NCBI RefSeq assembly: GCF_001427665.1
Contig: NZ_LMHC01000007.1
Location: 1-64,000 of the forward strand
Direction: 5' to 3'
DNA length: 64,000 nt
DNA from: Caulobacter sp. Root655
Lineage (GTDB): Bacteria; Pseudomonadota; Alphaproteobacteria; Caulobacterales; Caulobacteraceae
Numbering within the stretch: the stretch's first letter is position 1; the number at the start of each line of letters is the position of its first letter. Positions 119 to 35,497 of the stretch are shown piece after piece. A program made the position numbers and the translations under genes. The notes under the pieces were generated by a model. The model was not told the origin of the DNA, searched no databases, and saw only the letters and a program-made list of their open reading frames with translations.

Positions 119-146
119 GGGCGCGCTGGTCAGCGCGCCCGGTTTT
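119..146 (+). terminator. Intrinsic terminator
   Basis: A 9-bp perfect stem (119-127 with 132-140, GC-rich) with a 4-nt loop is followed by GGTTTT. It ends the plus-strand gene at the left edge. The stop codon of the convergent GH127 gene (130-132) lies inside the hairpin, so the two transcripts overlap at their 3' ends. Confidence 0.7.
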
Positions 147-3983: not shown

Positions 3984-4085
3984 TAGGCCTGCTACCAAAT
4001 CACGCCGTGAAGCCTCGCATTGCGATCTGGCGTGCGGCGGGAAGTCCGGGAGCGATCTCCCGCAAAATCAATTGGGGATGAGACC

Positions 4086-9774: not shown

Positions 9775-9801
9775 TCTTCACGTCCCCCGTGAAGCCACTT
9801 G

Positions 9802-9835
9802 ATAGCCGGTCCATTCGTGGACCGGCTATATTTTC
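9802..9835 (+). terminator. Intrinsic terminator after the TonB receptor
   Basis: A 12-bp perfect stem (9802-9813 with 9818-9829) closed by a TTCG tetraloop and followed by ATTTTCT. It may be partly read through, because the GH92 start is only about 70 bp further on and no other promoter is obvious. Confidence 0.85.
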
Positions 9836-9905
9836 TCCCTTCGAAGGGCGCCGCCCAAACATCGTTCCGACGGCCCTCGTCGGGCACGTAGCCAGAAGGA
9901 TTTCC

Positions 9906-12461: not shown

Positions 12462-12477
12462 GATCTGGAGCCGCGTG

Positions 12478-18764: not shown

Positions 18765-19784
18765 TCAGGCCTTGTGGGTGCGGGCGTAGTGGTCGAAGGC
18801 CACCGCGGCGACGATGATCAGGCCGATCACCACCTGCTGGAAGTACGAGGTCACATGCATGATCACGAGGCCGTTCGACAGCACCCCGATCAGCAAGGCG
18901 CCCAGGATGGTGCCGCCGACGCCGCCGGAGCCGCCCGTGAGGCTGGCCCCGCCGATCACCACCGAGGCGATGACGCGCAGCTCGTAGCCCGTGCCGCCCA
19001 CGGCCTCGGCCGAACCCAGGCGCGCCGACAGCAGGAAGCCCGACAGACCGGCCAGGGCGCCGATCACCGCGTAGACGCTGGTCACGATGAAATCGACGTT
19101 GACGCCCGACAGGCGGGCGGCCTCGGCGTTGCCGCCGACCGCATAGACCTGCCGACCGTAGCGGGTGTAGCGCAGCACCAGGTGGCCCACGGCGGCCACC
19201 AGGGCGAAGACCACCACTGGAACCGGCACGAACAGGATGTGGCCCGTGCCCCACCAGCGGTAGGCGGCGTCGAAGCCCGAGATCGGGCCGCCGTCGTTCA
19301 GGATCAGCGTCGCGCCGCGCCAGACGGTCATGCCGCCCAGGGTGACGATGAAGGCTGGCACATGCAGCCAGGTGACCGCCTTGCCGTGGATGTAGCCGCC
19401 GGCCAAGCCGACCAGGCTGGAGAGGGCCAGGGCGATCAGCCAACTGGCTGGCGAGGCGCCGAGCACGGCCGTCACCACATAGGCGGCCGCGAGCGAGGCG
19501 AAGGCCAGCAGCGAGCCCACCGCCACGTCGATGCCGCCGATCAGGATCACATAGGTCATGCCGACCGCGATGATCCCGTAGATCGACACCTCGCTAAGAA
19601 TGTTCAGCGCGTTGCGAACGGTCAGAAAGCGCTCGTTGACGGCGCCGAACACGGCGATCAGCAGCAGCAGGAACAGGATTGTCCGGTGCTTGCGCGCGAA
19701 GGCCAGGAGGCTGAAGCGCCGACCAGGCGGCGGAGCGGCCCGCTCGGCGGCCGGATCGGGGGAAAGCGTCGGGGAGGCGGTCAT
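18765..19784 (-). CDS. iatP: Inositol ABC transporter permease
   Basis: A 339-residue RbsC-type permease with about ten membrane helices and the family segments MTYVILIGGIDVAVGSLLA and GGASLTGGSGGVGGTILGALLIGVLSNGLV. It forms the membrane channel of an import complex with the ATPase and binding protein encoded just upstream. The ATG overlaps the stop of iatA (ATGA). The myo-inositol assignment rests on similarity of the three-gene set to the C. crescentus iat system and on the neighbouring iol genes; by sequence alone it could be a ribose-type importer. Confidence 0.85.
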   Translation of the reverse strand: MTASPTLSPDPAAERAAPPPGRRFSLLAFARKHRTILFLLLLIAVFGAVNERFLTVRNALNILSEVSIYGIIAVGMTYVILIGGIDVAVGSLLAFASLAAAYVVTAVLGASPASWLIALALSSLVGLAGGYIHGKAVTWLHVPAFIVTLGGMTVWRGATLILNDGGPISGFDAAYRWWGTGHILFVPVPVVVFALVAAVGHLVLRYTRYGRQVYAVGGNAEAARLSGVNVDFIVTSVYAVIGALAGLSGFLLSARLGSAEAVGGTGYELRVIASVVIGGASLTGGSGGVGGTILGALLIGVLSNGLVIMHVTSYFQQVVIGLIIVAAVAFDHYARTHKA

Positions 19785-21328
19785 GCGGGACGGTGTTCCA
19801 TTCCTGACGGCGAAGACCGGCCGGCGCCCGTCGCCATGTAGGCCATCAGACCTTCTTCAGTGGCCGTTTCGGCCTCGAGGTTGGCGACGATCGCGCCTTC
19901 GCGGAAGACGATGATGCGATCGCTGACGGCCATGACCTCGGCCAGCTCCGAGGAGATGACGACGATGGCCACGCCCTGGGCGGCCAGGTCGGACAGCACC
20001 TGGTGGACCTCGGCCTTGGCGCCGATGTCGATACCGCGGGTGGGCTCGTCGACGATCAGCACGCGCGGGGCGAGGGCCATCGAGCGGCCCAGCAGCACCT
20101 TCTGCTGGTTGCCGCCCGACAGCTTGCCGATCGGGGTCTCCTGACTGGCCATCTTGATCCGCAGCTTCTGGCGATAGATCTCGACGAGGTCGCGCTCGGC
20201 GCGTTCGTCGACCCACTGGCCCAGGCGGCTCAGGGGCTTGAGGCTGGGCAGGCTGAGATTGTGGCGGATGGAATGGTCCAGGAAACAGCCCTGCTGCTTG
20301 CGGTCCTCGGGCACCAGCATGACGCCGGCCCGGATCGCGTCGCGCGGCGACTTCAGCTTCAGCGGCTTGTCGTCCAGCCGGATCTCCCCCGAGGCCAGGG
20401 CGTCGGCGCCGAAGATCAGGCGAGCGAGATCCGTGCGGCCGGCCCCGACCAGGCCGGCCAGGCCGACGATCTCGCCGGCGCGCACCTCCAGCGAAATGTC
20501 CTTCAGATAGTCAGGCGCGGTCAGGCGAGGGTGGCGGGGCGTCACGGCCTCGACCTTCAGCACGACCGGGCCGGGCGGGCCCGAACGGACGCGGCGGACG
20601 AACTCGACGGAGCGACCGACCATCAGCCGGACCATGTCATCGACCTCGACGTCGGCCACATCGCCGCTGGCCACATAGCGGCCATCGCGCATCACTGTGT
20701 AGCGGTCGCACATGGCCTTCACTTCGGTCAGGCGGTGCGAGACGTAGATGACACTGACGCCGCGCGCCTTCAGGTCGGCGATGATGGCGTGCAGGCGGTC
20801 GACCTCGCGGCTGCTGAGAGCCGCCGTGGGCTCGTCCATGATGATCAGCCGAGCGTTCAGCGTCATCGCCTTGGCGATCTCGACCATCTGCTGCTCGGCC
20901 ACGGTCAGGCGGCTGACCGGCTCGTCGGGATCGAGCGGCAGGCCCAGTTCGCCCAGCAGAGCCTGGGCGTCGGCGCGCAGTCGCCGCCAGTCGATCAGGC
21001 CCAGCCGCTTCGGTTCGCGGCTCAGGTAGATGTTCTCGGCGACGCTGAGCTCGGGGAACAGATTGAATTCCTGGTAGATCGTCGCGATGCCCAGCTGCTG
21101 GCGGCGCAGGGGCGTGTCACGCGGATCCAGCGGCTGTCCGTCGAACGTGACCGCCCCTTCGTCGGCCGCATGGGCCGCCGAGAGAATCTTGATCAGGGTT
21201 GACTTGCCCGCGCCGTTCTCGCCCAGCAGGGCGTGGATCTCGCCGCGCCCGACCTCGATCCGGACCTGGTCGAGGGCGCGCACGCCGGGAAAGCTCTTGC
21301 TGACCTGGCTGACATCCAGAAGAGTCAT
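19781..21328 (-). CDS. iatA: Inositol ABC transporter ATPase, duplicated
   Basis: A 515-residue sugar-type ATPase with two fused ABC domains, as in RbsA. The first has Walker A GENGAGKST at 36-44, the signature region LTVAEQQMVEIAKAM and Walker B LIIMDEPTAALS. The second carries the degenerate GLVGAGRTD P-loop, LSGGNQQKVLLGRSMA and VLIVDEPTRGIDIGAK. The start at 21328 (MTLLDVSQVSKSF) is where the family begins; the frame stays open upstream into ibpA without family sequence. It lies 20 bp after ibpA and overlaps iatP by 4 bp. Confidence 0.9.
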   Translation of the reverse strand: MTLLDVSQVSKSFPGVRALDQVRIEVGRGEIHALLGENGAGKSTLIKILSAAHAADEGAVTFDGQPLDPRDTPLRRQQLGIATIYQEFNLFPELSVAENIYLSREPKRLGLIDWRRLRADAQALLGELGLPLDPDEPVSRLTVAEQQMVEIAKAMTLNARLIIMDEPTAALSSREVDRLHAIIADLKARGVSVIYVSHRLTEVKAMCDRYTVMRDGRYVASGDVADVEVDDMVRLMVGRSVEFVRRVRSGPPGPVVLKVEAVTPRHPRLTAPDYLKDISLEVRAGEIVGLAGLVGAGRTDLARLIFGADALASGEIRLDDKPLKLKSPRDAIRAGVMLVPEDRKQQGCFLDHSIRHNLSLPSLKPLSRLGQWVDERAERDLVEIYRQKLRIKMASQETPIGKLSGGNQQKVLLGRSMALAPRVLIVDEPTRGIDIGAKAEVHQVLSDLAAQGVAIVVISSELAEVMAVSDRIIVFREGAIVANLEAETATEEGLMAYMATGAGRSSPSGMEHRPA

Positions 21329-21348
21329 CGTTTCATCCGCCGCCGAGA

Positions 21349-22332
21349 CTACTTCACCTCGGATATGCGTGAAGCCTCGGCGAGATTGGCGCTGGTGATC
21401 AATATCGGGGTGAGGCTGACGGACTTGGGCGCCGCGCCGGTCTTGATCTTGGCCACGGCCTGGCGAAGGGCGGTGCGGATCTGCTGGCCGGGGTTCTGCT
21501 CGACCGAAGCCACCATCTCGCCGGCCCTGATCCGGGCCAGGGCCTCGGGAATGGCGTCGAAGCCCAGCACCTTGATCTTGTTCGGACCGAAGCCGGCGGC
21601 GCGCACGGCCTCCAGCGCACCCATGGCCATGTCGTCGTTCAGGCACAGGATCACGTCGGGTGGGGTGTCGTGCATCGAGGTCAGCACGTTCTGGGTGACG
21701 GTCAGGGCCTGGTCACGCTTGGAGTTGGCGGTCTGCTCGGTGACGATCTTGAACGCCGGGCCGCCGGCCGCGAGGCCCTCGTGGACGCCCTTGACCCGCT
21801 CGATCGAGCTGGAGCTGCCGGGGTCGTTGGTGATCACCACGACGCGCGCGCCGGCGGGGTAGGTCTTGACCACCCAATCGGCCATCGCACGGCCGCCGGC
21901 CACGTTGTCGGCCCCGACGTGCGGCACGGGCGTCTTCGCGCCGGCGATGTTGCGGTCGACCGAGATCACCGCGACGCCCTGTTCGACCAGTTCGTCGGCG
22001 GCGGTGGCCAGGGCCTTGGAGTCGGTCGGGGCGACGATCACCACCTTGGCGCCCTGCACCGCGGCGGCCTCGAGGTCGGCGATCTGCTTGGAGGAGTTGT
22101 TCTGGGCGTCCATCACCTGGACCTTCACGCCCAGCTTGGTGGCCTCGTCCTCGAGCTCGCGACGCATGGCCACGAAGAAGGGCTGGGAGAGGTCGTTGAA
22201 GCTGACCACGATTTCGGAGGCGTTCTGGCCGCCGCGCGCGCATCCGCCAAGCAAGCCGCCGGCCACCGCCGTCAGCCCAAGTCCCGACACCAGGCCAAGG
22301 AAGCGTCGGCGTGATGTCAGGGGGCGGATCAT
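21349..22332 (-). CDS. ibpA: Inositol-binding periplasmic lipoprotein
   Basis: A 327-residue ribose-type substrate-binding protein (Peripla_BP_4), first gene of the transporter operon. The N-terminus combines a twin-arginine motif (SRRRFLGLVSG) with a lipobox (LLGGC, Cys about residue 31), so it is probably a Tat-exported lipoprotein, which is unusual for this family. Ligand-binding blocks include FFVAMRRELEDEA, VSVDRN-like segment VISVDRNI, and GFDAIPEALARIRAGE. A GGAA-N6-TTCC site 72 bp upstream suggests IolR control. myo-Inositol as ligand is inferred from operon and from the C. crescentus homologue set. Confidence 0.85.
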   Translation of the reverse strand: MIRPLTSRRRFLGLVSGLGLTAVAGGLLGGCARGGQNASEIVVSFNDLSQPFFVAMRRELEDEATKLGVKVQVMDAQNNSSKQIADLEAAAVQGAKVVIVAPTDSKALATAADELVEQGVAVISVDRNIAGAKTPVPHVGADNVAGGRAMADWVVKTYPAGARVVVITNDPGSSSSIERVKGVHEGLAAGGPAFKIVTEQTANSKRDQALTVTQNVLTSMHDTPPDVILCLNDDMAMGALEAVRAAGFGPNKIKVLGFDAIPEALARIRAGEMVASVEQNPGQQIRTALRQAVAKIKTGAAPKSVSLTPILITSANLAEASRISEVK

Positions 22333-22536: not shown

Positions 22537-23523
22537 CTACAGCCTCACGACCTGGCTCGTCCTGGCCGACTGGCCGGCCGCCTCGGCCAGGGCCAGGGCC
22601 TCAACGCCATCGACATAGCCGATCAAGGGGAGGGTTTCGCCACGAACGATCTGCGCGAAATGTTCCATCTCGCGGCGGTAGGCCTCGGCATAGCGGTCGA
22701 GGAAGAAGTTCTGGAACGCGTCGCTGGCCACGCCGCCCTTGCCCCAGACCGAGACCGTGCTCTCCATGACGTTGTCGGCGCGGACCAAGCCCTTCGAGCC
22801 GAACGCCTCGATGCGCTGGTCGTATCCGTAGCCGCTGCGGCGGCTGTTGCTGATAACGCAGATCTTGCCCGAGGCGGTGCGCAGCAGGATCTTGGCGGTG
22901 TCGACGTCGCCGGCCTCGCCGATCGCGGGATCCACCAGGCAGCTGGCGGTGGCGAAGACCTCCGTCACCGGTTCATCCAGCAGCCAGCGGGCCATGTCGA
23001 AGTCATGGATGGCCATGTCCTTGAACAGGCCGCCCGACACCTTGACATACGAGACCGGCGGCGGGGCTGGGTCGTGGCTCGTGATGTGAACCGTCTCCAG
23101 GGCGCCGACCACGCCGGCGGCCAGGCGCGCCTTCAGGCCCTGGAAGTTGGGGTCGAAGCGACGATTGAAGCCCAGGAACAGCCTGACGCCCCGACCGCCC
23201 AACGCCGCGGCGGCCGAGCGGGCGCGGTCCAGGTCTTGGTCGATCGGCTTCTCGCAGAATACGGCCTTGCCCGCCGCCACGGCCTTCAGGCTGTAGTCGA
23301 GATGGGTGTCGGTCGAGCTTGCGATGATGACGCCGGCCACGGACGGATCGTTCAATGCGGCGTCGAGGTCGGAGACCTGCGCGCCCGTCTCCGCGGCGAG
23401 GTCCTCGGCCGCCGCGGCGACGGGGTCGACGACATGCTTCAGGCGCAGGCCCGGCTGGTTGGCGACGTTCTTGGCGTGGATGCGACCGATGCGGCCCGCG
23501 CCCAGGATGGCGATGTCGTGCAT
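22537..23523 (-). CDS. idhA: myo-Inositol 2-dehydrogenase
   Basis: A 328-residue Gfo/Idh/MocA oxidoreductase (IdhA/IolG), catalysing NAD-dependent oxidation of myo-inositol to scyllo-inosose, the first catabolic step. The Rossmann motif GAGRIGRIHAKN begins at residue 7, EKPID carries the conserved catalytic lysine, and SHDPAPPPVSYVKVSGGLFKDMAIHDFDM contains the substrate-site histidine/aspartate pattern of inositol dehydrogenases (shown here as key residues in SGGLFKDMAIHDFD). The start at 23523 (MHDIAILGAG) fits the family; longer in-frame sequence upstream is not conserved-looking. It is divergent from iolR. Confidence 0.92.
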   Translation of the reverse strand: MHDIAILGAGRIGRIHAKNVANQPGLRLKHVVDPVAAAAEDLAAETGAQVSDLDAALNDPSVAGVIIASSTDTHLDYSLKAVAAGKAVFCEKPIDQDLDRARSAAAALGGRGVRLFLGFNRRFDPNFQGLKARLAAGVVGALETVHITSHDPAPPPVSYVKVSGGLFKDMAIHDFDMARWLLDEPVTEVFATASCLVDPAIGEAGDVDTAKILLRTASGKICVISNSRRSGYGYDQRIEAFGSKGLVRADNVMESTVSVWGKGGVASDAFQNFFLDRYAEAYRREMEHFAQIVRGETLPLIGYVDGVEALALAEAAGQSARTSQVVRL

Positions 23524-23622
23524 GGGAACCTTCGTACTCTCAAGGGATTGAGCGCCGGCGCGGCCATCGCTGCTCTCTCGTCCAGCTCGTGCGGTGGTCG
23601 CGATTTCGCCTTCCTGTAGCTT

Positions 23623-23659
23623 GGAATAAAAATTCCCTCTATAGCTAAAGCGGAATTCC
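23623..23659. promoter_or_regulatory. Candidate IolR operators between idhA and iolR
   Basis: GGAA-TAAAAA-TTCC at 23623-23636 is a full site 100 bp before idhA. A contiguous GGAATTCC at 23652-23659 follows. Both lie in the divergent idhA/iolR gap, so IolR could repress idhA and its own gene from here. Confidence 0.65.
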
Positions 23660-23743
23660 TGATCGTGATCGGAACCGTGGTGTCCGGGCACGGGATGGAT
23701 ACTCTAAATTTGGATCGTCGAGCCCCAGATGACGGAAGAGACC

Positions 23744-24607
23744 ATGGCGGCGAATGCGCCGGCCAGCGCGGACGAACTGAGGGCGGCGATCCTCGATCGT
23801 TACGAAACACTCAGCAAGCGCCTGCAGCAGATCGCCCGCTACGCGCTGGATGAGCCCAACGGAATGGCGCTGGAAACCCTGGCGGTGATCTCCGAGCGGT
23901 GCGGCGTGCAACCTTCGGCCATCGTCCGTTTCGCCAAAACCTTCGGCTATCCCGGCGCCAGCCAGATGCAACGGCTGTTCCGCGACGGTCTGCTGTCGGC
24001 TCACACGGGGCTGGGTTACGGCGAGCGCGTGCGCCACTTCAACGAGGCGGTGGCCAGAAAGCCCAACGGCGGCGGCGCCGAGGTGTTGGCCGAGTTCGTC
24101 GAGGGCAATACCCTGGCCTTGGAGAACTTGGCCCAGACCGTCAGCGAAGAGGACATGTCCAAAGCCGTGAAGCTGATCGACGAGGCCGAGACGGTTTATG
24201 TCGTCGGTTTCCGCCGCTCGTTCCCGGTGGCCTCGTACTTGGCCTATTCGCTGCAGCAGGTGAACAAACGCACCCTATTCATCGATGGCGTGGCGGGCCT
24301 GACCAGGCAACAGGTCCAAACCATCGGGCCGAAGGATCTGCTGATCGCCGTCAGCTACCACCCGTACGCCGAAGAGACGGTTCAAGCCGTCGAGATGGCC
24401 GTCGAGCGGAGCGCGAAGGTGCTCTCCATCAGCGACAGCCTGGTCAGCCCGATCGCCAAGCCGGCCAGCCTGGTCCTGCATGTGCGCGAGTCCGAGGTGA
24501 GGACCTTCCGCTCGCTGGCCGCCTCGATCTGCTTGGCCCAGGCCCTTGTGATCGGCTTTGCCTTCGAGTCCAACAAGGCAAAAGGGAAGGGCCGCAAGAG
24601 CGGTTGA
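23744..24607 (+). CDS. iolR: RpiR-family transcriptional regulator of inositol genes
   Basis: A 287-residue regulator with an N-terminal HTH_6 domain (about residues 15-85, LQQIARYALDEP ... SERCGVQPSAIVRFAKTFGYPG) and a C-terminal SIS sugar-isomerase-like domain (about 125-255, VYVVGFRRSFPVASYLAYS ... LLIAVSYHPYAEETV) that would bind a sugar-phosphate-like inducer. An ATG at 23729 would add five residues, but GACGGAAGAG sits just before ATG 23744, so I chose that. It lies between idhA and iolC. In C. crescentus the homologue represses the inositol genes; the GGAA-N6-TTCC sites here fit that role. Confidence 0.9.
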   Translation: MAANAPASADELRAAILDRYETLSKRLQQIARYALDEPNGMALETLAVISERCGVQPSAIVRFAKTFGYPGASQMQRLFRDGLLSAHTGLGYGERVRHFNEAVARKPNGGGAEVLAEFVEGNTLALENLAQTVSEEDMSKAVKLIDEAETVYVVGFRRSFPVASYLAYSLQQVNKRTLFIDGVAGLTRQQVQTIGPKDLLIAVSYHPYAEETVQAVEMAVERSAKVLSISDSLVSPIAKPASLVLHVRESEVRTFRSLAASICLAQALVIGFAFESNKAKGKGRKSG

Positions 24608-24723: not shown

Positions 24724-26649
24724 ATGGCGCAGGACGCAAAGACCCTTGATCTGATCGCCATCGGCCGCTCCTCGGTCGACCTCTACGGTCAGCAGATCGG
24801 CGGTCGGCTGGAGGACATGGGGTCGTTCGCCAAGTACCTGGGCGGCAGCCCGACCAACACCGCCTCGGGCGGGGCCCGCCTGGGCCTGAAGACCGGCCTG
24901 CTGACCCGGGTCGGGGCTGACCACATGGGCCGCTTCATCCGCGAGCAGCTGGCTCGCGAGGGCGTCGACGTGGCGGGGGTGCTGACCGACCCCGAGCGGC
25001 TGACCGCCCTGGTGATCCTGGGCATCCGCGACCGCGACACCTTTCCGCTGATCTTCTACCGCGAGAATTGCGCCGACATGGCGCTGGAGGAGGGCGACGT
25101 CGATCCGGCGTGGCTGGCCTCGGCGGGCGCGGTGCTGATCAACGGCACGCACCTTTCCCAGCCCGGCGTCTACGCCGCCAGCCTGAAGGCCGCCAAGGCG
25201 GTCAAGGCGACGGGCGGCCGGGTGGCTTTCGACATCGACTACCGCCCGGTGCTGTGGGGCCTGACCGGCAAGGACGCCGGCGAGAACCGCTTCGTCGAGA
25301 ACCAGGACGTCACCCGCAAGCTGCAGGAGGTCCTGACCCTTTGCGACCTGATCGTCGGCACCGAGGAGGAGATCCACATCCTGGGCGGCGCGACCGACAC
25401 CGTCACCGCCCTGCGCGCCATCCGCGAACGCACCGATGCGCTGCTGGTTTGCAAGCGCGGCCCGGACGGTTGCGTCGCCTTCCCGGGCGCGGTGCCCGAC
25501 GCGCTCGACGAGGGCGTCAGCGCCCGCGGCTTCAAGGTCGAGGTGTTCAACGTGCTGGGGGCGGGGGACGCCTTCATGGCCGGCTTCCTGCGCGGCTGGC
25601 TGCGCGGCGAAGCCATCGAGACCAGCTGCGAGTGGGGCAACGCCTGTGGAGCCATCGTCGTGTCGCGCCACGGCTGCGCCCCGGCCATGCCGACCTGGAT
25701 CGAGCTGGAGCAGTTCCTGGGCGAGCGTGAGCGGCCATTCCGCCTGCGCGAGGACAAGGACCTCGAGCACACCCATTGGGCCACCACGCGCGAGGGCGTG
25801 CAGGAGGAACTGACCGTTCTGGCCATGGATCACCGCAGCCAGTTCGAGGACCTGATCGCCGAGACCGGCGCCGACGCCGCCCGCATTCCGCGCTTCAAGA
25901 CCCTGGCCCTGCGCGCCGTCGAGACGGTGGCCGGCGGTGACCACCGATTTGGCGTGCTGCTGGACGGTCGGTTCGGCTTCGACGCCCTGGCCCAGGCTGC
26001 TGACCGGCCCTACTGGATCGGCCGTCCGATCGAGCTGCCCAGGTCGCGGCCGTTGCAGTTCGAGAGCTCGGCCGACGTGGGGACGGAGCTGACCGAATGG
26101 CCGCTGAACCACGTGGTCAAGTGCCTGGTCTTCTATCATCCCGACGACGAGGTCGCGCTGCGCGAGCAGCAGGAGCGCCAACTGCTCCGGCTGTTCGACG
26201 CCTGCCGCAAGACCCGCCACGAACTGCTGGTCGAGGTGATCCTGCCCCAGGGCATGGATAGCGACAGCCGCACCGTGGCCCGCGCCATCCGTCGCCTCTA
26301 CGCCGTCGGCGTGCGGCCCGACTGGTGGAAGCTGGAGCCCGTCTCCGACCCCGCCGCCTGGCGCGAGATCGAGATCGCGGTCAACGAGAATGATCCGCTG
26401 TGCCGGGGCGTGGTGCTGCTGGGCCTGTCGGCGCCGGAGGCCGAGCTGCTGGCCTCGTTCGAGGTCGCCGCGCCCTTCGCGATCGTCAAGGGCTTCGCCG
26501 TGGGGCGCACCATCTTCTACGACGTCGCCCGGGACTGGCTGAGCGACCGCATCGATGACGACGCGGCCGTGACGGCCCTGGCCGGCAAGTTCACCGTGCT
26601 GGTCGAGGCCTGGCGCCGGGCCCGCGCTGCTGGAAAGAGGGCCGCGTAA
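24724..26649 (+). CDS. iolC: 5-Dehydro-2-deoxygluconokinase fused to DUF2090 domain
   Basis: A 641-residue fusion. Residues 1-330 form a PfkB-family kinase phosphorylating 2-deoxy-5-keto-D-gluconate: GGSPTNTASGGARLGLKTGL near 40-60 and GAGDAF at 279-284 with catalytic Asp282. From about residue 355 a DUF2090 domain begins (ELTVLAMDHRSQFE), an aldolase-like barrel found fused to IolC in many bacteria. No separate iolJ aldolase gene is in the window, so this domain may split the phosphorylated product into dihydroxyacetone phosphate and malonate semialdehyde; that is inference. First gene of iolCDEB; its stop overlaps the iolD start. Confidence 0.92.
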   Translation: MAQDAKTLDLIAIGRSSVDLYGQQIGGRLEDMGSFAKYLGGSPTNTASGGARLGLKTGLLTRVGADHMGRFIREQLAREGVDVAGVLTDPERLTALVILGIRDRDTFPLIFYRENCADMALEEGDVDPAWLASAGAVLINGTHLSQPGVYAASLKAAKAVKATGGRVAFDIDYRPVLWGLTGKDAGENRFVENQDVTRKLQEVLTLCDLIVGTEEEIHILGGATDTVTALRAIRERTDALLVCKRGPDGCVAFPGAVPDALDEGVSARGFKVEVFNVLGAGDAFMAGFLRGWLRGEAIETSCEWGNACGAIVVSRHGCAPAMPTWIELEQFLGERERPFRLREDKDLEHTHWATTREGVQEELTVLAMDHRSQFEDLIAETGADAARIPRFKTLALRAVETVAGGDHRFGVLLDGRFGFDALAQAADRPYWIGRPIELPRSRPLQFESSADVGTELTEWPLNHVVKCLVFYHPDDEVALREQQERQLLRLFDACRKTRHELLVEVILPQGMDSDSRTVARAIRRLYAVGVRPDWWKLEPVSDPAAWREIEIAVNENDPLCRGVVLLGLSAPEAELLASFEVAAPFAIVKGFAVGRTIFYDVARDWLSDRIDDDAAVTALAGKFTVLVEAWRRARAAGKRAA

Positions 26650-28496
26650 TGGCCGCCATCCGTCTCACCGCCGCCCAGGCGACCGTCCGCTGGTTGAGCC
26701 AGCAATATGTCGAGACCGCGCGCGGCGAGGTTCCGTATTTCGCCGGGGTCTGGGCGATCTTCGGCCACGGCAATGTCGCCGGCCTGGGCGAGGCCCTGCA
26801 CGGCGTCCGCGACGTGCTGCCGACCTGGCGCGCCCACAACGAACAGGGCATGGCCCACGCGGCCATCGCCTTCGCCAAACAGTCGCGGCGCGAGCGGGCC
26901 ATGGTCTGCACCAGCTCGATCGGCCCCGGCGCGACCAACATGGTCACCGCCGCCGCCCTGGCCCACGTCAACCGCCTGCCGGTGCTGTTCCTGCCCGGCG
27001 ACGTCTATGCCAGCCGACGCCCGGATCCGGTCTTGCAGCAGGTGGAGGACTTCGGCGACGGGACGATCAGCGCCAACGACTGCTTCAGGCCAGTGTCGCG
27101 CTATTTCGACCGCATCATGCGGCCCGAGCAAATTCTCGACTGCCTGCCGCGCGCCCTGGCGACCATGCTCGACCCGGCCTCCTGCGGCCCGGCGACCCTG
27201 GCCTTCTGCCAGGACGTCCAGGCCGAAGCCTTCGACTATCCGGAAGGCTTCTTCGCCAGGCGGGTCTGGCGTATTCGCGCGCCCCAGCCCGACCCGCGCG
27301 AGCTGGATGACCTCGTCGGCCTGATCCGGGCGGCCAAGGCGCCGCTGATCGTGGCCGGAGGCGGGGTGCTCTACGCCCGCGCCGAGGCGGCGCTGGCGGC
27401 TCTGGCCAGCGACACCGGCGCGCCGGTCGCCGAGACGCAGGGCGGCAAGGGTTCCCTGGCCTGGGATCACCCGTGCAACCTGGGCAGCGTCGGCGTCACC
27501 GGCAGTGCGGCCGCCAACGCCGCCGCCGAGGCCGCCGACCTGATCGTCGGGATCGGCACGCGGCTGCAGGACTTCACCACCGGTTCGCGGGCGCTGTTCG
27601 GCGCGCCGGGCCGCAAGCTGGTCCAGGTCAATGTCGCTGTTCACGACGCCCACAAACATGGCGCCGTCAGCGTGGTCGGCGACGCCGGGGCGGTGATCGC
27701 GGCCCTGGCCGAGCGCCTGGCCGACTGGAAGGCGCCCGCCGCCTGGGCCGACGAGGCCACTGGCCGCATCGCCGGTTGGAACGCCGCCTTCGACGCCGCC
27801 ACGGCGCTCGACGACCGGCCCTTGCCGACCGACGCCCAGGTGCTGGGCGCGGTGTCGCGGTCGGCGTCCGATGACGCGGTGGTGGTCTGCGCGGCCGGCG
27901 GGCTGCCAGGCGAACTGCACAAGCTTTGGCGCACGAAACAGCCCGGCGGCTATCACGTCGAATACGGTTTCTCGTGCATGGGCTACGAGATCGCCGGCGC
28001 CGTGGGCGTCAAGATGGCCGCGCCGGACCGCGAGGTCCATGTGATGGTCGGCGACGGCAGCTACCTGATGCTCAACTCCGAACTGGCCACCTCGGTGATG
28101 CTCGGGACCAAGCTGATCGTCACCGTCCTCGACAACCGGGGCTATGGCTGCATCAACCGTCTGCAGGCCGCGACCGGCGGCGCGCCGTTCAACAACCTTC
28201 TGGCCGATACGGTCCACCAGACCCTGCCCGACATCGACTTCGCCGCCCATGCCGCCAGCCTCGGCGCGCGGTCGGAGAAGGTCCGAAGCCTCGTGGAACT
28301 GGAGGCGGCGCTGCAACGCGCCAAGGCCAGCGACCGGACCTATGTCGTGGTCATCGACACCGACCCGATGTCGACCACGGAAGAGGGCGGCGCCTGGTGG
28401 GACGTGGCGGCGCCCGAGGTGTCGGTGCGTCCGACGGTCAACGCGGCGCGGGCCGACTACGAAAACAAAATCAAGCAACAGCGTACGGGAGACTGA
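26649..28496 (+). CDS. iolD: Trihydroxycyclohexane-1,2-dione hydrolase, ThDP-dependent
   Basis: A 615-residue enzyme opening the ring of 3D-trihydroxycyclohexane-1,2-dione to 5-deoxyglucuronate in the cytoplasm. The three domains of ThDP enzymes are clear: an N-terminal domain with the catalytic glutamate in RAHNEQGMAHAA (about residue 63), a central domain (LIVAGGGVLYARAEAAL), and a C-terminal domain whose ThDP/Mg motif starts GDGSYLMLNSEL and ends near VLDNRGYGCINRLQ. The ATG at 26649 overlaps the iolC stop by one base, indicating translational coupling. Confidence 0.94.
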   Translation: MAAIRLTAAQATVRWLSQQYVETARGEVPYFAGVWAIFGHGNVAGLGEALHGVRDVLPTWRAHNEQGMAHAAIAFAKQSRRERAMVCTSSIGPGATNMVTAAALAHVNRLPVLFLPGDVYASRRPDPVLQQVEDFGDGTISANDCFRPVSRYFDRIMRPEQILDCLPRALATMLDPASCGPATLAFCQDVQAEAFDYPEGFFARRVWRIRAPQPDPRELDDLVGLIRAAKAPLIVAGGGVLYARAEAALAALASDTGAPVAETQGGKGSLAWDHPCNLGSVGVTGSAAANAAAEAADLIVGIGTRLQDFTTGSRALFGAPGRKLVQVNVAVHDAHKHGAVSVVGDAGAVIAALAERLADWKAPAAWADEATGRIAGWNAAFDAATALDDRPLPTDAQVLGAVSRSASDDAVVVCAAGGLPGELHKLWRTKQPGGYHVEYGFSCMGYEIAGAVGVKMAAPDREVHVMVGDGSYLMLNSELATSVMLGTKLIVTVLDNRGYGCINRLQAATGGAPFNNLLADTVHQTLPDIDFAAHAASLGARSEKVRSLVELEAALQRAKASDRTYVVVIDTDPMSTTEEGGAWWDVAAPEVSVRPTVNAARADYENKIKQQRTGD

Positions 28497-28500
28497 CGTC

Positions 28501-29400
28501 ATGGCCATCCGTTTCGGCGTGAGTCCCATCGCCTGGATCAACGACGACATGCCCGAGCTGGGCGGCGACACCCCGCTGGAGAGCGTGCTGGCCGATTGCC
28601 AGGCCATCGGCTTCGCCGGCGTCGAGCTGGGCGGGGTGTTCCCTCGCGACCCGGCGGTGCTGAAGCCGCTGCTGGCCCGCTACGGCCTCGACCTGGTCGG
28701 CGGCTGGCACAGCGGCAACCTGCTGGTCCAGTCGGCCGACGACGAGATCGCGGCGCTGCAGAAGCACCTGGCCCTGCTGAAGGCCATGGGCAGCACCGTC
28801 TTCGTCCATGCCGAGACCAGCAACGCCATCCACGGTGACAAGTCCAAGGCCCTGTCGGCCACCCCGCGCCTCGACGCCGAGGGATGGAAGGAATTCGGCG
28901 CCCGCCTGACCAGGGTGGCCGACTATATCCAGTCCCAGGGGCTGAAGTTCGCCTACCACCATCACCTGGGCACCGTGGTCGAGCGGCCCGAGGATCTGGA
29001 AGCGTTCCTGGCCAATACGGGTTCGTCGGTGGGTCTGACGGTCGACACGGGTCACGCGGCGCTGGGCGGGCTGGATCCCGTGGCGATGATCCGAAGCTAT
29101 CCGCACCGCATCGCCCACGTGCACTGCAAGGACATTCGCGGCGAGGTCTTCCGCAAGGTGATCTCCGACCAGGGCGGCAGCTTCCTGGACGGCGTGCTGG
29201 CCGGCATGTTCACCGTGCCCGGCGACGGCTATCTCGACTATGCGGCGGTGATGCGGGCCCTGGCCGAGATCGGCTATTCGGGCTGGATCATCGTCGAGGC
29301 CGAGCAGGACCCGGCCATCGCCAATCCCCGCGAGTACGGCGAGATCGGTCTGGCGACGCTGAAGCGCGAGGCCGCGGCGGCCGGCCTGAAGGCGGCGTGA
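28501..29400 (+). CDS. iolE: myo-Inosose-2 dehydratase
   Basis: A 299-residue xylose-isomerase-like TIM barrel that dehydrates scyllo-inosose to 3D-trihydroxycyclohexane-1,2-dione. Family blocks: FGVSPIAWINDDMPELGG at the N-terminus, GVELGG, AYHHHLGT, TVDTGHAALGG and HVHCKDIR, which carry the metal-binding acidic and histidine residues. The start ATG 28501 lies 4 bp after the iolD stop with GGGAG upstream; a longer in-frame extension runs back inside iolD and is an overlap artefact. Confidence 0.94.
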   Translation: MAIRFGVSPIAWINDDMPELGGDTPLESVLADCQAIGFAGVELGGVFPRDPAVLKPLLARYGLDLVGGWHSGNLLVQSADDEIAALQKHLALLKAMGSTVFVHAETSNAIHGDKSKALSATPRLDAEGWKEFGARLTRVADYIQSQGLKFAYHHHLGTVVERPEDLEAFLANTGSSVGLTVDTGHAALGGLDPVAMIRSYPHRIAHVHCKDIRGEVFRKVISDQGGSFLDGVLAGMFTVPGDGYLDYAAVMRALAEIGYSGWIIVEAEQDPAIANPREYGEIGLATLKREAAAAGLKAA

Positions 29401-29557: not shown

Positions 29558-30364
29558 ATGAGTCCTCTCCTTGTGCGCCCCCACGCGCCGGATGCCTCGG
29601 GCGCCGTGCTCGAGGTCACGCCCCAGAGCGCCGGCTGGACCCACGTCGGCTTCAAGGTCGTCAAGCTGGAGCCCGGCCAGTCGCTGGGCGGCGGCGAGGT
29701 CGATCGCGAGACCTGCCTGGTGGTGATGTGCGGCAAGGCCTCGGTCACGGTCGGCGGCCAGGACTTCGGCGCGATCGGCGGCCGGGCCAGTGTGTTCGAG
29801 GACGCCGCTCCCGGCGCGGTCTACGCCCCGGCCGGCGCGGCCTTCAGCGTCACGGCGGTCACCGCCGTGGAGCTGGCCCTGTGCTCGGCCCCGGGCAAGC
29901 CCGGCCACGAACCTCGCCTGATCGCGGCCGGCGACATGCCCCGGGAGGTGAGGGGGCAGGGGACCAATGTCCGCCACGTCCGCAACATCCTGCCCGAGAC
30001 CGCTCCGGCCGACGGCCTGCTGGTGGTCGAGGTGATCACCCCCGGCGGCCACTGGTCCAGCTATCCGCCGCACAAGCACGATACGGCGGCCGACGGCGAG
30101 GAGACCGCGCTGGAGGAGACCTATTATCACCGCCTGGACCCGCCGCAGGGCTTCGCTTTCCAGCGCGTCTACACCGACGACCGCAGCCTGGACGAGACGG
30201 TCTGCGTCCAGGACGGCGACGTGGTGATGGTGCCGCGCGGCTACCACCCGGTCGGGGCCCCGCACGGCTACGACCTCTACTACCTCAACGTCATGGCCGG
30301 CCCGCACCGCAAGTGGATCTTCCGCAACGACCCGGCCCACGACTGGATCGCCCGCAAGGCCTAG
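29558..30364 (+). CDS. iolB: 5-Deoxy-glucuronate isomerase
   Basis: A 268-residue bicupin metalloenzyme isomerising 5-deoxyglucuronate to 2-deoxy-5-keto-D-gluconate. Conserved segments include TCLVVMCGKASVTVGGQDF in the first cupin, and YPPHKHDTAADGEETALEET with the metal-binding HKHD and Glu plus GYHPVGAPHGYDLYYLNVMAG in the second. GGGGAGG precedes ATG 29558. It follows the palindromic repeat and is read in the same direction as iolCDE. Confidence 0.93.
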   Translation: MSPLLVRPHAPDASGAVLEVTPQSAGWTHVGFKVVKLEPGQSLGGGEVDRETCLVVMCGKASVTVGGQDFGAIGGRASVFEDAAPGAVYAPAGAAFSVTAVTAVELALCSAPGKPGHEPRLIAAGDMPREVRGQGTNVRHVRNILPETAPADGLLVVEVITPGGHWSSYPPHKHDTAADGEETALEETYYHRLDPPQGFAFQRVYTDDRSLDETVCVQDGDVVMVPRGYHPVGAPHGYDLYYLNVMAGPHRKWIFRNDPAHDWIARKA

Positions 30365-30368
30365 TCAT

Positions 30369-30430
30369 TTAGATCTTTGTTCTAACGCATTTTCTTCACG
30401 CGAACCGGCATCCACCTCGCTCGAAAATGC
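30369..30430. repeat. Intergenic palindromic repeat between iolB and mmsA
   Basis: GCATTTTC (30387-30394) and GAAAATGC (30423-30430) flank a 28-nt segment containing TTCACGCGAACCGG. I recognise this as a common dispersed intergenic element of Caulobacter-like genomes. It fills nearly the whole gap and overlaps the upstream possible starts of mmsA, supporting the later start chosen there. Confidence 0.65.
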
Positions 30431-30447
30431 TCATGAAGGAGCGCGTG

Positions 30448-31947
<1,500 letters not shown>

Positions 31948-32051: not shown

Positions 32052-34382
32052 ATGTCCTCCAGGCCCTCGCGTCGCCAAACCCTGAAGCAAGCCGTGGCCG
32101 CCCTGGCCGCGGCCGCGACGCCATCCTTCGCCGCGGCGACGGCGGACGAGGCGAGGGGAGTCGAGGCGGCCCAAGGCGTGCTGGCGCGCCGGCTCGGGGC
32201 GCGGGCGGCGGGCATCGCCCTAACCCTCGTCCCGTCCGCGAGGCCGGCGGGCAAGCCCTGGTACAATGTGCAGGCGCGGGGCGGCAGGGTGATGATCACG
32301 GGGGACACGCCGGTGGCCTTGGCCCGCGGCGCCTACGCCTATCTGAAGCAGGCCGGGGCGGCTTCCGTCAGCTGGGAAGGTGACCGCATTGCCCTGCCGG
32401 CGCGGTTTCCCGACGCCGACACCGGACCGGTCATCAGTCTCTTCACCCATCGCGCCTACCTCAACACCTGCACCTACGGCTACACCACACCCTGGTGGGG
32501 GTGGGACCGCTGGAGCCGCGAGATCGACTGGATGGCGGTTCACGGCGTCGACATGCCGCTGGCCATGGAAGGTCAGGACCATGTCTGGCGCGCGTTGTGG
32601 CGCGAGCTTGGTCTGAGCGAGACCGAACTGGCCGACTATTTCTCCGGGCCCGCCTTCACGCCCTGGCAGCGCATGGGCAATATCGAGGCCTACCGCGCGC
32701 CTCTGCCCGCGAACTGGATCGACAAGAAGAAGGACCTGCAGGTCCGGATCCTGGGAAGGATGCGGGCGCTGGGCATGACCCCGATCCTGCCGGCCTTCGG
32801 CGGCTACGTGCCCAAGGCCTTTGCTCGGAAACACCCGAAGGCCCGTATCTACCGCATGCGGCCATGGGAGGGGTTTCACGAAACCTACTGGCTGGATCCG
32901 GCCGACCCGCTGTTCGCGAAGATCGCCGGCCGCTTCCTGGCGCTCTATACCCAGACCTACGGGGCGGGGGCCCACTACCTGGCCGACTCGTTCAACGAGA
33001 TGCTGCCGCCGATCAGCGCCGACGGCGCGGACGCGCGCGACGCCGCGTATGGCGACGGCGTGGCCAACACGGCGGGGACCAAGACCAAGGTCGAGGTCGA
33101 CCCCGCCACCAAGGCCCAGCGCCTGGCCGCCTATGGCAAGGCCATCTACGACTCGATCCGGCAAACCCGGCCCGACGCGGTCTGGGTGATGCAGGGCTGG
33201 CTGTTCGGCGCGGACTCCCACTTCTGGGAGCCGTCGGCGATCTCGGCCTATCTTAGCCTCGTCCCCGACGACAAACTGATGATCCTCGACATTGGCAACG
33301 ATCGGTATCCGGACGTCTGGCGCAACGCCAAGGCCTTTGGCGGCAAGCCATGGATCTACGGCTACGTGCATAATTATGGGGGCAGCAACCCGGTCTACGG
33401 CGACCTCGACTACTACCGTCGCGACCTGGCGGGCATCGCGGGCAATCCCGACGCCGGCAAGCTGGCGGGCTTCGGGATGTTCCCCGAGGGGCTGCACAAC
33501 AATTCGATCGTCTACGAGGCCGTCTACGACCTGGCCTGGGGCGCGGGACAGCCGTCGCTGCCGGCCTGGCTCGGGACCTATGCGCGCGCGCGCTACGGCC
33601 GGACCACGCCCGAACTCGATGCGGCCATGGCGCTGCTGGTTCAGGCGGCCTATTCGACCCGCTACTGGTCGCCGCGCTGGTGGAAGAGCAAGGCCGGCGC
33701 CTATCTGTTCTTCAAGCGGCCGACGGCGACGATCGGCGAGTTCCCGGGTCATCCTGGTGATCGCGCCAAGTTGGACGCGGCTGTCCGCGCGCTAGCCGCC
33801 CAGGGGGCCGCCTTCGTTGACCAGCCCTTGTTCGTGCTGGACCTCGTCGACGCGGCCCGACACCTGGCCAGCCTGGAGATCGACGGCCAACTGCAGGCCG
33901 CCGTGGCCGCCTATCGCCGGGGCGACCTTGTCGCCGGCGACCGGTCGCGCGGTGAGGTCGAGGCATTGGCCTTGGCGATCGACGCGCTGCTGGGCGTCCA
34001 GCCCGAGACCCTGGCGACCTGGATCGACGACGCCAAGGCTTACGGCGATACGCCGGCGGACGCTGCCGCCTATGTCGCCAACGCCAAGGCTCAGGTCACC
34101 GTCTGGGGCGGCGAGGGCAATCTCAACGACTATGCGTCCAAGGCCTGGCAGGGGCTCTATCGCGACTTCTACCTGCCGCGCTGGTCGCGGTTCCTCGACG
34201 CGCTGAAGGCGGCGGGGGCAGGGGCCTTCGACGAGGCCGCTGTCACTCGCGACGGCGTCGCCTGGGAGCGTGCCTGGGTCGCGGCGGATGTCGTCTATCG
34301 CCGCCAGCGACCCGCCGACCCTGTCGGCGGGGTCAAGGTCCTGATCGCGCGCCTGGATCAAGCCCGGGAGAAGAACGGTTGA
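32052..34382 (+). CDS. GH89 alpha-N-acetylglucosaminidase (NAGLU family), exported
   Basis: A 776-residue enzyme removing terminal alpha-linked GlcNAc. A twin-arginine-type signal (RPSRRQTLKQAVA, then Ala-rich to about residue 29) suggests Tat export. After a small N-terminal domain, the barrel shows LNTCTYGYTTPWWGWDRW, DWMAVHGVDMPLAM, ADSFNEMLPP with E316 and GMFPEGLHNNSIVYE with E479, which I take as the catalytic pair by comparison with human NAGLU. A C-terminal helical domain follows. It lies downstream of mmsA in the same direction, and its stop overlaps the start of a glucosaminide acetyltransferase. Confidence 0.93.
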   Translation: MSSRPSRRQTLKQAVAALAAAATPSFAAATADEARGVEAAQGVLARRLGARAAGIALTLVPSARPAGKPWYNVQARGGRVMITGDTPVALARGAYAYLKQAGAASVSWEGDRIALPARFPDADTGPVISLFTHRAYLNTCTYGYTTPWWGWDRWSREIDWMAVHGVDMPLAMEGQDHVWRALWRELGLSETELADYFSGPAFTPWQRMGNIEAYRAPLPANWIDKKKDLQVRILGRMRALGMTPILPAFGGYVPKAFARKHPKARIYRMRPWEGFHETYWLDPADPLFAKIAGRFLALYTQTYGAGAHYLADSFNEMLPPISADGADARDAAYGDGVANTAGTKTKVEVDPATKAQRLAAYGKAIYDSIRQTRPDAVWVMQGWLFGADSHFWEPSAISAYLSLVPDDKLMILDIGNDRYPDVWRNAKAFGGKPWIYGYVHNYGGSNPVYGDLDYYRRDLAGIAGNPDAGKLAGFGMFPEGLHNNSIVYEAVYDLAWGAGQPSLPAWLGTYARARYGRTTPELDAAMALLVQAAYSTRYWSPRWWKSKAGAYLFFKRPTATIGEFPGHPGDRAKLDAAVRALAAQGAAFVDQPLFVLDLVDAARHLASLEIDGQLQAAVAAYRRGDLVAGDRSRGEVEALALAIDALLGVQPETLATWIDDAKAYGDTPADAAAYVANAKAQVTVWGGEGNLNDYASKAWQGLYRDFYLPRWSRFLDALKAAGAGAFDEAAVTRDGVAWERAWVAADVVYRRQRPADPVGGVKVLIARLDQAREKNG

Positions 34383-35497
34383 CTACCCCCGCTCCACGTT
34401 TCCTGTCCCTGGATGTCTTCCGGGGCCTGACGGTCTGCCTGATGATCGTCGTCAACACGGCGGGGCCAGGCGCCGAGGCCTACGCCCCGATGGTCCATGC
34501 CCCTTGGTTTGGGTTCACCGCGGCGGACGCGGTGTTCCCGTCGTTCCTGTTCGCGGTCGGCTGCTCGATGGCCTTCGCCTTCTCGCGGCCGATCCCGACG
34601 GGGGATTTCATGTCGAAGGTGCTGCGGCGCGCGGCGCTGATCTTCCTGCTCGGCTTCCTGATGTACTGGTTCCCGTTCGTCCGGAAGCTGGACGGGCACT
34701 GGACGCTGATCCCGTTCGCGGACACGCGGGTGATGGGCGTCCTGCAGCGCATCGCCCTTTGCTACGCGCTCGCCGCCTTCGCCGCGCGCTGGCTGTCGCC
34801 ACGCCTGATCGTCGTCCTGTCGGTCGTGCTGCTGCTGGGCTACTGGGCGATCCTGCTGGCCTTCGGCGATCCGGTCGCTCCATTGTCCAAGCTGGGCAAC
34901 GCGGGAACCCATTTGGATCTCTGGCTGCTGGGCAAGAATCACCTTTATCGCAAGGACGGCGGCTTCGATCCCGAAGGTCTGTTGGGAACCTTGCCGTCGA
35001 CGGTCAACGTGCTGGCCGGCTATCTCGCCGCGCGCTTTCTGAAGGAGACGTCCGACGCTCGCCGGGCCACGATCGGCATGGCCCTGACCGGCCTGGCCCT
35101 GATCGCCGGCGGTCTTGCCTGGGGGCTGGTCTTTCCGATCGCCAAGAAACTGTGGACCAGCAGCTTCGTCCTGCTGACCGTCGGCCTGGACCTGGTGTTG
35201 CTGGCGGCCCTGATCGCGGTGTTGGAAGGCCGCAAGCCCAATGCGGCGATACGCTTCTTCCAGGTGTTCGGCCTCAATCCGCTGGTGATCTACCTGTTCT
35301 CCGAGCTCTTCGTGACCGTGTTGGGCATGGTCGAAGTCGCGCCGGGCAGGGGGCTCTACGCGTGGATTGGGGTCCACGTGTTCCAGGCGCTGGCGCCGGG
35401 CGCGCTGGGCTCGCTGCTATGCGCGATAGGCTACATGCTGGTCTGCTGGCTGCTGGGCTACGTCATGGATCGCCGCCGCATCGTCGTGAAGCTGTAG
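34379..35497 (+). CDS. HGSNAT/NagX-type membrane glucosaminide acetyltransferase
   Basis: A 372-residue membrane protein with about ten helices. Its N-terminus (SLDVFRGLTVCLMIVVNTAG, then HAPWFGFTAADAVFPSFLF with H40) matches heparan-alpha-glucosaminide N-acetyltransferase, where that histidine is central to passing acetyl from cytosolic acetyl-CoA to an alpha-glucosamine on the far side of the membrane. Start is TTG 34379, overlapping the GH89 TGA, with GGGAGAAG upstream. Coupled to GH89 it would acetylate alpha-GlcN so that GH89 can remove it. Activity is inferred; many bacterial members (NagX/DUF5009) are uncharacterised. Confidence 0.82.
   Translation: MTTPAPRFLSLDVFRGLTVCLMIVVNTAGPGAEAYAPMVHAPWFGFTAADAVFPSFLFAVGCSMAFAFSRPIPTGDFMSKVLRRAALIFLLGFLMYWFPFVRKLDGHWTLIPFADTRVMGVLQRIALCYALAAFAARWLSPRLIVVLSVVLLLGYWAILLAFGDPVAPLSKLGNAGTHLDLWLLGKNHLYRKDGGFDPEGLLGTLPSTVNVLAGYLAARFLKETSDARRATIGMALTGLALIAGGLAWGLVFPIAKKLWTSSFVLLTVGLDLVLLAALIAVLEGRKPNAAIRFFQVFGLNPLVIYLFSELFVTVLGMVEVAPGRGLYAWIGVHVFQALAPGALGSLLCAIGYMLVCWLLGYVMDRRRIVVKL

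Follow-up and report, generated by a model that had tools for sequence, protein, structure and literature searches.

A locus at about 6.7-35.5 kb of the window (the whole stretch of 64,000 nucleotides of Caulobacter sp. Root655 that was analysed) probably serves to dismantle plant GIPC headgroups or released inositol-phosphate glycans, with an overlapping GH89 and HGSNAT-like gene pair providing the hexosamine-removal step. GIPCs, or glycosylinositol phosphorylceramides, are very abundant and are major sphingolipids of the plant plasma membrane. The enzyme families for GlcN(Ac)-a1,4-GlcA-a1,2-Ins-P, with specificities predicted from sequence, occur together in the window and in several relatives. 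GIPC-headgroup utilisation is a class proposed here and has no defined family. The features concerned are the following (position in the window, strand, description, evidence):

130..2466, minus: GH127 beta-L-arabinofuranosidase, flanking, possibly part of the locus (GH127, E 1e-124)
4020..5642, plus: GH51 alpha-L-arabinofuranosidase, flanking, possibly part of the locus (Alpha-L-AF_C)
6721..9774, plus: TonB-dependent receptor (TonB_dep_Rec and Plug)
9720..12461, plus: GH92 alpha-mannosidase a (Glyco_hydro_92, E 2e-106); translation probably begins downstream of the listed TTG
12475..13752, plus: histidine acid phosphatase of AppA/phytase type (His_Phos_2); export predicted
13817..16339, plus: GH115 alpha-glucuronidase, BtGH115A-like (Pfam GH115, E 2e-128; closest solved structure BtGH115A 5by3, 542 bits)
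16439..18748, minus: GH92 alpha-mannosidase b (Glyco_hydro_92, E 6e-159)
18765..19784, minus: iatP-like permease (BPD_transp_2)
19781..21646, minus: iatA-like ABC ATPase (ABC_tran)
21349..22332, minus: IbpA-like myo-inositol binding protein (closest solved structure 4irx, E 3e-160)
22537..23691, minus: iolG/idhA inositol 2-dehydrogenase (TIGR04380, equivalog, over cut-off)
23729..24607, plus: RpiR-family regulator in the iolR position (SIS and HTH_6)
24724..26649, plus: iolC-DUF2090 kinase/aldolase fusion (fusion model NF047869, over cut-off)
26649..28496, plus: iolD (TIGR04377, equivalog, 936 bits, over cut-off)
28501..29400, plus: iolE inosose dehydratase (TIGR04379, equivalog, over cut-off)
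29558..30364, plus: iolB 5-deoxyglucuronate isomerase (TIGR04378, equivalog, over cut-off)
30427..31947, plus: iolA / CoA-acylating methylmalonate-semialdehyde dehydrogenase, MMSDH (TIGR01722, subfamily model, 672 bits, over cut-off)
32052..34382, plus: GH89 alpha-N-acetylglucosaminidase with Tat-like signal (Pfam NAGLU_N/NAGLU/NAGLU_C, AF2 model)
34379..35497, plus: HGSNAT/NagX-type transmembrane glucosamine N-acetyltransferase, TTG start (Pfam HGSNAT_cat, AF2 model)

The GH89 ORF is full-length with 776 aa and the HGSNAT-like ORF has 372 aa. The coordinates confirm the 4-bp overlap between them described in the sequence-only reading, with the TTG start (34379-34381) lying over the TGA stop (34380-34382). 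This TTG is a credible start since the same start site is used in homologues and the 4-bp overlap is kept in 41 of the 79 paired loci described below, mostly with ATG or GTG as the start codon. Immediately 5' of GH89 lie iolC-DUF2090, iolD, iolE, iolB and iolA/MMSDH, so the pair does follow inositol genes as had been claimed. A second HGSNAT/NagX paralogue of this genome (L084) is separate, on another contig, and NCBIfam names in its neighbourhood were uninformative except for one beta-lactamase-like gene.

The GH89 protein matched three Pfam models over cut-off, NAGLU_N, NAGLU (E 2e-123) and NAGLU_C. Its E316 and E479, at the catalytic Glu positions, match the FNEM and PEG motifs of human NAGLU (4xwh) and were invariant in 32 homologues. 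Family membership is assigned from the domains and this Glu pair, and alpha-N-acetylglucosaminidase activity is predicted. The AF2 model gave a Z of 39.2 to 4xwh against 34.6 to CpGH89, with sequence identities of 34% and 26%, respectively. The proposed export of GH89 is consistent with a Tat-like N-terminus (SRRQTLK). Alignments of the loop sequence were ambiguous for the CpGH89 Trp-loop as a marker of specificity.

The HGSNAT-like protein matched HGSNAT_cat (PF07786) with 38.6 bits against a cut-off of 22 (E 1e-9) and human HGSNAT in phmmer (E 1e-16). Its score to the NagX equivalog NF046061, 141 bits, missed the curated cut-off of 480 and the protein is therefore not that equivalog. The structural comparison with human HGSNAT proposed earlier was done with an AF2 model (pLDDT 91), which gave a Z of 40.1 over 343 residues to 8vli. 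Residues H40, N26, D50, R117, D197, E199 and E309 are conserved and align with H269, N258, D279, R344, D469, E471 and E587, these being the catalytic His, the acetyl-CoA-binding Asn and luminal salt-bridge residues. H40, the key His of the sequence-only reading, thus corresponds to the human catalytic His (H297 in the 663-aa numbering, H269 in the 635-aa numbering) and was invariant across 40 homologues. Human H586 is replaced by S308; nearly all acetyl-CoA-site residues are otherwise retained in the model.

Among 80 loci holding the closest relatives of the window GH89, an HGSNAT-like gene adjoined GH89 in 79, the exception ending at a contig edge; as the lineages are related, such neighbourhood counts overstate independence. 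Of 398 Pseudomonadota genomes in a sample, only 6 had GH89, and this rarity, together with the neighbour in 79/80, argues that the pairing is not due to chance. In these six genomes, a less biased sample of the phylum, the HGSNAT-like gene was adjacent in four and about 5 kb distant in a fifth, while the sixth had none. Genes for GH115, phosphatase, GH92 and an inositol importer were found to recur around the pair, which strengthened the earlier suggestion of alpha-GlcN linked to inositol or to glucuronate-inositol.

The myo-inositol catabolic module of the window is complete (iolG, C, D, E, B and A, with the importer). The structure closest to its binding protein, 4irx, carries only the database name of a sugar-binding protein, and we take it to be the Caulobacter myo-inositol-binding protein. 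The iatA-like ORF runs into the binding protein gene and its true start is probably near 21330, the homologue in L085 being shorter. The iolD gene was within 20 kb of GH89 in 9 of 15 genomes having iolD, where matches below the cut-off of the model, being other thiamine enzymes, were left out. In C. crescentus, iolR also adjoins the iol operon (PMC2597717).

GH115 lay at most 20 kb from GH89 in 19 of 50 genomes against about 0.6 expected. The GH115 copies with low Pfam scores formed two deep clades in a tree, both closest to BtGH115A in PDB searches, with a high-scoring copy being closest to xylan enzymes. Of the BtGH115A-like copies, 24 of 42 had GH89 or iolD at most 20 kb away, compared with none of 27 xylan-type copies from the same genomes (Fisher 2e-7, uncorrected for the relatedness of lineages). 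The order TonB-dependent receptor-GH89-NagX-histidine phosphatase-GH115 was found in Caulobacter (L010, L011, L012, L014 and L112), and the order TonB-dependent receptor-GH92-histidine phosphatase-GH115 is common to the window, L085 and L086. A histidine acid phosphatase adjoins GH115 or NagX in nine loci, the window included; the closest solved structures to that of the window are histidine acid phosphatases/phytases (E 1e-69). A GH92 gene of the b type lies beside inositol ABC and GH115 genes in L085, L086, L089 and L103, and GH51 was also present on the GH89 locus in L018 and L025. The layout differs in Asticcacaulis (L099-L101), where a GH115 of the other lineage, with an identity of only about 40% and a deep clade of its own, is overlapped by an alkaline phosphatase gene and is divergent from iolA-inositol ABC-GH92. 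The same slots are filled in Caulobacter and Asticcacaulis by divergent GH115 lineages and unrelated phosphatases.

From these genes we infer the substrates, the sequence of reactions, which proteins are exported and how they are oriented, as follows. Glycans would enter the periplasm through the TonB-dependent receptor, with trimming of Man and Ara by the GH92 enzymes and perhaps GH51 and GH127. The HGSNAT/NagX protein would then use cytosolic acetyl-CoA to N-acetylate terminal alpha-GlcN across the inner membrane, after which GH89 may remove alpha-GlcNAc from GlcA, GH115 the alpha-1,2-GlcA from inositol and the phosphatase the phosphate of inositol phosphate. Inositol could finally be taken up by the myo-inositol ABC importer and catabolised through iolG and iolCDEBA. 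The two-step transmembrane chemistry suggested previously is supported by the fold, the acetyl-CoA site and the pairing; it is not new for NagX, for which transmembrane acetylation of free glucosamine was already proposed in 2022 (PMC9007349), and the pair also occurs in loci without iol genes. The GIPC headgroup is GlcNAc(a1-4)GlcA(a1-2)Ins-1-P-ceramide, with tobacco having PSL1 with GlcNAc and PSL2 with GlcN and Arabidopsis leaves having Man-GlcA (PMC8099651). A phospholipase C of Botrytis frees inositol-phosphate glycans, and ions of m/z 596 and 638, differing by one acetyl, were reported from infected tomato (PMC11496612). No ceramide-releasing phospholipase or ceramidase was recognised among the annotated genes of the locus, these being a subset of its ORFs.

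The two enzyme families are those of the human heparan pathway, and GH89 is slightly nearer to human NAGLU than to CpGH89. It is nevertheless highly improbable that the locus is a lysosome-like module for exo-degradation of heparan or heparosan. The sequence-only reading had set the pair apart from sulfatases, and a motif scan found a genuine sulfatase-type motif in only 3 of 80 loci. In 50 genomes no Hepar_II_III gene came closer than 20 kb to GH89, the nearest being about 24 kb away on one contig, and a heparan-degradation cluster was rejected as neither search showed a consistent link. Neither of the two findings that would have refuted the sequence-only reading, regular clustering with heparan genes or loss of the acetyl-CoA site in the model, was thus observed. 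GH2 neighbours were also considered as beta-glucuronidases for heparosan and rejected, as the Xanthomonas GH2 proteins lack the NxK motif expected of such enzymes.

The main rivals to the GIPC reading are glycans of GPI anchors and arabinogalactan proteins, and general GlcNAc scavenging. Digestion of GPI-anchored arabinogalactan protein, in which GH115, GH51 and GH127 would act on arabinogalactan, GH92 on GPI mannoses and NagX with GH89 on GlcN-alpha1,6-inositol before the phosphatase and inositol catabolism, is considered unlikely. The GPI core bears non-acetylated alpha-GlcN on inositol, so NagX would be needed, and two GH92 genes, GH51 and GH127 are in the window. However, glucuronic acid is absent from the GPI core, which would leave the tight GH115-iol-GH89 linkage without a role, and the compact Caulobacter operon GH89-NagX-phosphatase-GH115 (L010, L011, L012 and L014) has no adjacent GH92. 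BtGH115A, the sole characterised relative of this GH115 branch, was reported to be active on arabinogalactan, a point in favour of this rival and against the GIPC reading; a further point against the rival is that GlcA in arabinogalactan is beta-linked, according to PMC9063842. Scavenging, in which GH89 would free alpha-GlcNAc from a variety of glycans of plants or microbes and NagX acetylate free periplasmic glucosamine, with iol and GH115 reflecting plant-biomass clustering, also appears improbable. It draws on NagX fitness data on glucosamine from five bacteria (PMC9007349), on the MFS transporter, LacI, SIS and NagA-like amidohydrolase genes with the pair in Xanthomonas and some Asticcacaulis, and on PTS genes adjoining the pair in C. 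vibrioides L011. The window genome has its separate paralogue, however, only BtGH115A-like copies of GH115 show the linkage (xylan type 0/27), and coupling to GH89 is so conserved (41/79 with the overlap) that the acceptor is more simply read as terminal alpha-GlcN. Against the GIPC reading, Xanthomonas and many Sphingomonas have GH89-NagX without iol or GH115, beside GH2 and GlcNAc-catabolism or other glycan genes, the Asticcacaulis GH115 is divergent, and GH89-NagX in the window lies 16 kb from GH115 in a different transcription unit.

It is an evenly balanced proposition that plant-associated alphaproteobacteria have dedicated loci for eating GIPC headgroups by periplasmic acetylation and then cleavage, with the BtGH115A-like GH115 enzymes being GIPC alpha-1,2-glucuronidases. 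Literature searches on bacterial GIPC catabolism turned up no account of such a locus in bacteria. If true, the proposition would provide a concrete and testable enzyme set for bacterial recycling of GIPC headgroups and enzyme tools for GIPC structure analysis, and would assign a role to a GH115 branch that has been puzzling and has no settled natural substrate. A lysosome-like acetyltransferase would then be coupled to an alpha-GlcNAcase because headgroups with GlcN and with GlcNAc both occur in plants.

Among known systems, human lysosomal HGSNAT and NAGLU are of the families found here, with fold Z values of 40 and 39 and with the catalytic His and Asn, the acetyl-CoA site and the catalytic Glu pair conserved. 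The bacterial genes differ by their 4-bp overlap, a probable periplasmic rather than lysosomal setting, the lack of the luminal domain of HGSNAT and the absence of heparan genes nearby. Bacterial NagX of the Shewanella SO_3504 type is of the same transmembrane family, with proposed transfer from cytosolic acetyl-CoA to periplasmic GlcN, but is found with chitin genes instead of GH89 and inositol genes. The C. crescentus myo-inositol module (iol, ibpA-iatA-iatP) has the same importer and catabolic genes, although at two loci and with glycosidases unmentioned (PMC2597717), whereas in the window both sets sit in one locus together with GH92, GH115, phosphatase and GH89-NagX. BtGH115A (5by3) is the nearest solved relative of both GH115 lineages linked to GH89 or iol; it was reported to be inactive on xylan, its reported arabinogalactan linkage is questioned in PMC9063842 and GIPC headgroups go unmentioned in the passages on it. 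Botrytis BcGIPC-PLC1 shares the proposed substrate class, releasing inositol-phosphate glycans, but this fungal phospholipase C cuts the lipid bond, while the bacterial locus would process the freed glycan.

The window contains a GH89 gene (NAGLU family) that overlaps a gene for a predicted transmembrane glucosamine N-acetyltransferase of the HGSNAT/NagX type (NagX below):

32052-34382, + strand: GH89 ORF, 776 aa, with all three NAGLU domains
34379-35497, + strand: HGSNAT-type ORF, 372 aa, TTG start, HGSNAT_cat match

ORF coordinates and domain matches confirm the sequence-only reading of a pair with a 4-bp overlap and a TTG start. The nearest solved structures by phmmer were human NAGLU (E 2e-114) and human HGSNAT (E 1e-16), respectively. 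Two adjacent DUF3526 ABC-2 membrane proteins (53879-56673) also overlap by 4 bp.

Modelled by AF2 from a 40-row alignment (pLDDT 91), the acetyltransferase matched human HGSNAT with a Z of 40.1 over 343 residues at 2.6 Å, followed by GWT1 (Z 20.7), with the remaining structures below Z 7. In human HGSNAT, H269 is catalytic and N258 binds acetyl-CoA (PMC11357348). These align with H40 and N26 of the window protein (its residue numbers being counted by hand from the HGSNAT alignment), and D50, R117, D197, E199 and E309 align with D279, R344, D469, E471 and E587; S308 stands where HGSNAT has H586. The aligned site residues are invariant or nearly so across 40 homologues. The key His noted in the sequence is kept, as are nearly all residues of the acetyl-CoA site, and homology would place H40 on the periplasmic side. 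The GH89 model was closest to human NAGLU (Z 39.2, 34% identity), then to CpGH89 (Z 34.6, 26%).

A scan of genome contigs gave 80 GH89 loci, a set biased toward close relatives, from Caulobacter, Phenylobacterium, Asticcacaulis, Sphingomonadales, Xanthomonas relatives and others. The proposed pairing recurs in 79 of these, the remaining locus (L049) stopping at a contig edge, and 41 of the 79 pairs have an overlap of exactly 4 bp. In a less biased sample of 398 evenly drawn Pseudomonadota genomes, six carried GH89, with HGSNAT adjacent in four (including the window), about 5 kb away in one and absent from one. A second NagX paralogue of the window genome (C25:9874-11037, 40% identical) has no adjoining GH89; about 1.3 kb downstream is a beta-lactamase/AmpH-like gene in convergent orientation.

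Upstream of GH89 lie iolC-DUF2090, iolD, iolE, iolB and iolA, on the same strand, and an RpiR regulator; iolG and an ABC importer are on the opposite strand to these iol genes. The nearest solved structure to the importer's binding protein is 4irx (E 3e-160), the myo-inositol-binding protein of Caulobacter. In C. crescentus, myo-inositol enters only through IbpA-IatA-IatP (PMC2597717). Among the 15 genomes with a true iolD, 9 have it no more than 20 kb from GH89. Other recurring neighbours are TonB receptors (TBDR), GH115, phosphatases, GH92, GH51/GH43, GH2, GH29 and GlcNAc-catabolism genes. A tryptophan-halogenase family gene adjoins the TonB receptor of GH89 loci in several Caulobacterales (e.g., L019:3229-4740). 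In Xanthomonas (e.g., L055:6930-9896) a GH2 without the NxK motif is immediately upstream of GH89, possibly a galactosidase acting on Gal-capped headgroups.

Of 50 GH89-locus genomes surveyed, 19 had a GH115 no more than 20 kb from GH89, against about 0.6 expected. The GH115 copies form two Pfam score groups: 24/42 low-score and 0/27 high-score copies had GH89 or iolD no more than 20 kb away (Fisher 2e-7, kinship ignored). The low-score copies tested were closest to BtGH115A (5by3), and one high-score copy to xylan alpha-glucuronidases. A second GH115 of the window genome (C24:259911-262370), 60% identical to the window copy, adjoins a TonB receptor, with neither iol genes nor GH89 nearby.

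The window layout, TBDR-GH92-histidine phosphatase-GH115 / GH92-inositol ABC-iolG-regulator-iolCDEBA-GH89-NagX, was seen again in two Caulobacter genomes (L004, L005), and a compact order with equivalent functions, TBDR-GH89-NagX-phosphatase-GH115, in five Caulobacter loci (L010, L011, L012, L014, L112). In Asticcacaulis (L099-L101), GH115-phosphatase and iolA-inositol ABC-GH92 form divergent blocks, and GH89-NagX and iolDEB lie farther on. There, the GH115 belongs to a different deep clade and is overlapped or directly followed by an alkaline phosphatase (L099:12110-13621), closest in the PDB to animal-type enzymes and unrelated to the Caulobacter histidine phosphatase. Different GH115 lineages and unrelated phosphatases in the same slots point to selection for one reaction set, suggested to be hexosamine removal, alpha-glucuronidase action, dephosphorylation and inositol use.

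This set, with putative specificities for all locus enzymes, fits GlcN(Ac)-a1,4-GlcA-a1,2-inositol-1-P, the headgroup core of glycosylinositol phosphorylceramide (GIPC) from plants, which we hold with moderate confidence to be the most likely specific substrate. Tobacco headgroups occur N-acetylated (PSL1) and as the free amine (PSL2), and Arabidopsis leaf GIPC has Man-GlcA instead of GlcN(Ac)-GlcA, with Ara, Gal or Man possibly added (PMC8099651); the free amine would account for a dedicated acetyltransferase ahead of an alpha-GlcNAcase, and Man-GlcA for GH92. No lipid-cutting enzyme for GIPC was found among the annotated genes of the locus. Infected tomato contains inositol-phosphate glycans with GlcN/GlcNAc-type masses, which a fungal phospholipase C most likely frees from GIPC (PMC11496612); cleavage of the lipid by the bacteria themselves would then be unnecessary.

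Heparan was judged a very unlikely substrate: a true sulfatase motif occurred in only 3 of the 80 loci (L040, L057, L074), and in 50 genomes the 20 kb around GH89 held no Hepar_II_III gene. This agrees with the earlier remark that the pair follows inositol genes and is not placed with sulfatases, and the two-step scheme proposed there, in which GlcN on inositol or glucuronate-inositol would be acetylated and then cleaved, appears supported by context and structure. GPI or arabinogalactan-protein glycans are a rival substrate; PMC9063842 gives BtGH115A as inactive on xylan with reported arabinogalactan activity, a result called unusual by others because arabinogalactan GlcA is beta-linked. General GlcNAc scavenging is another rival. 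The window genome encodes elsewhere a GlcNAc-type PTS homologue (71% identity to that of C. vibrioides), so GlcNAc released from a GIPC headgroup could be used.

Periplasmic GlcN acetylation by NagX via acetyl-CoA, its HGSNAT homology and its conserved His have already been proposed, with fitness data published for free glucosamine (PMC9007349), so the acetyltransferase idea is not new. What does appear to be new, judged from open papers, is that the acetyltransferase is almost always coupled to GH89 and sits in an inositol-glycan locus.
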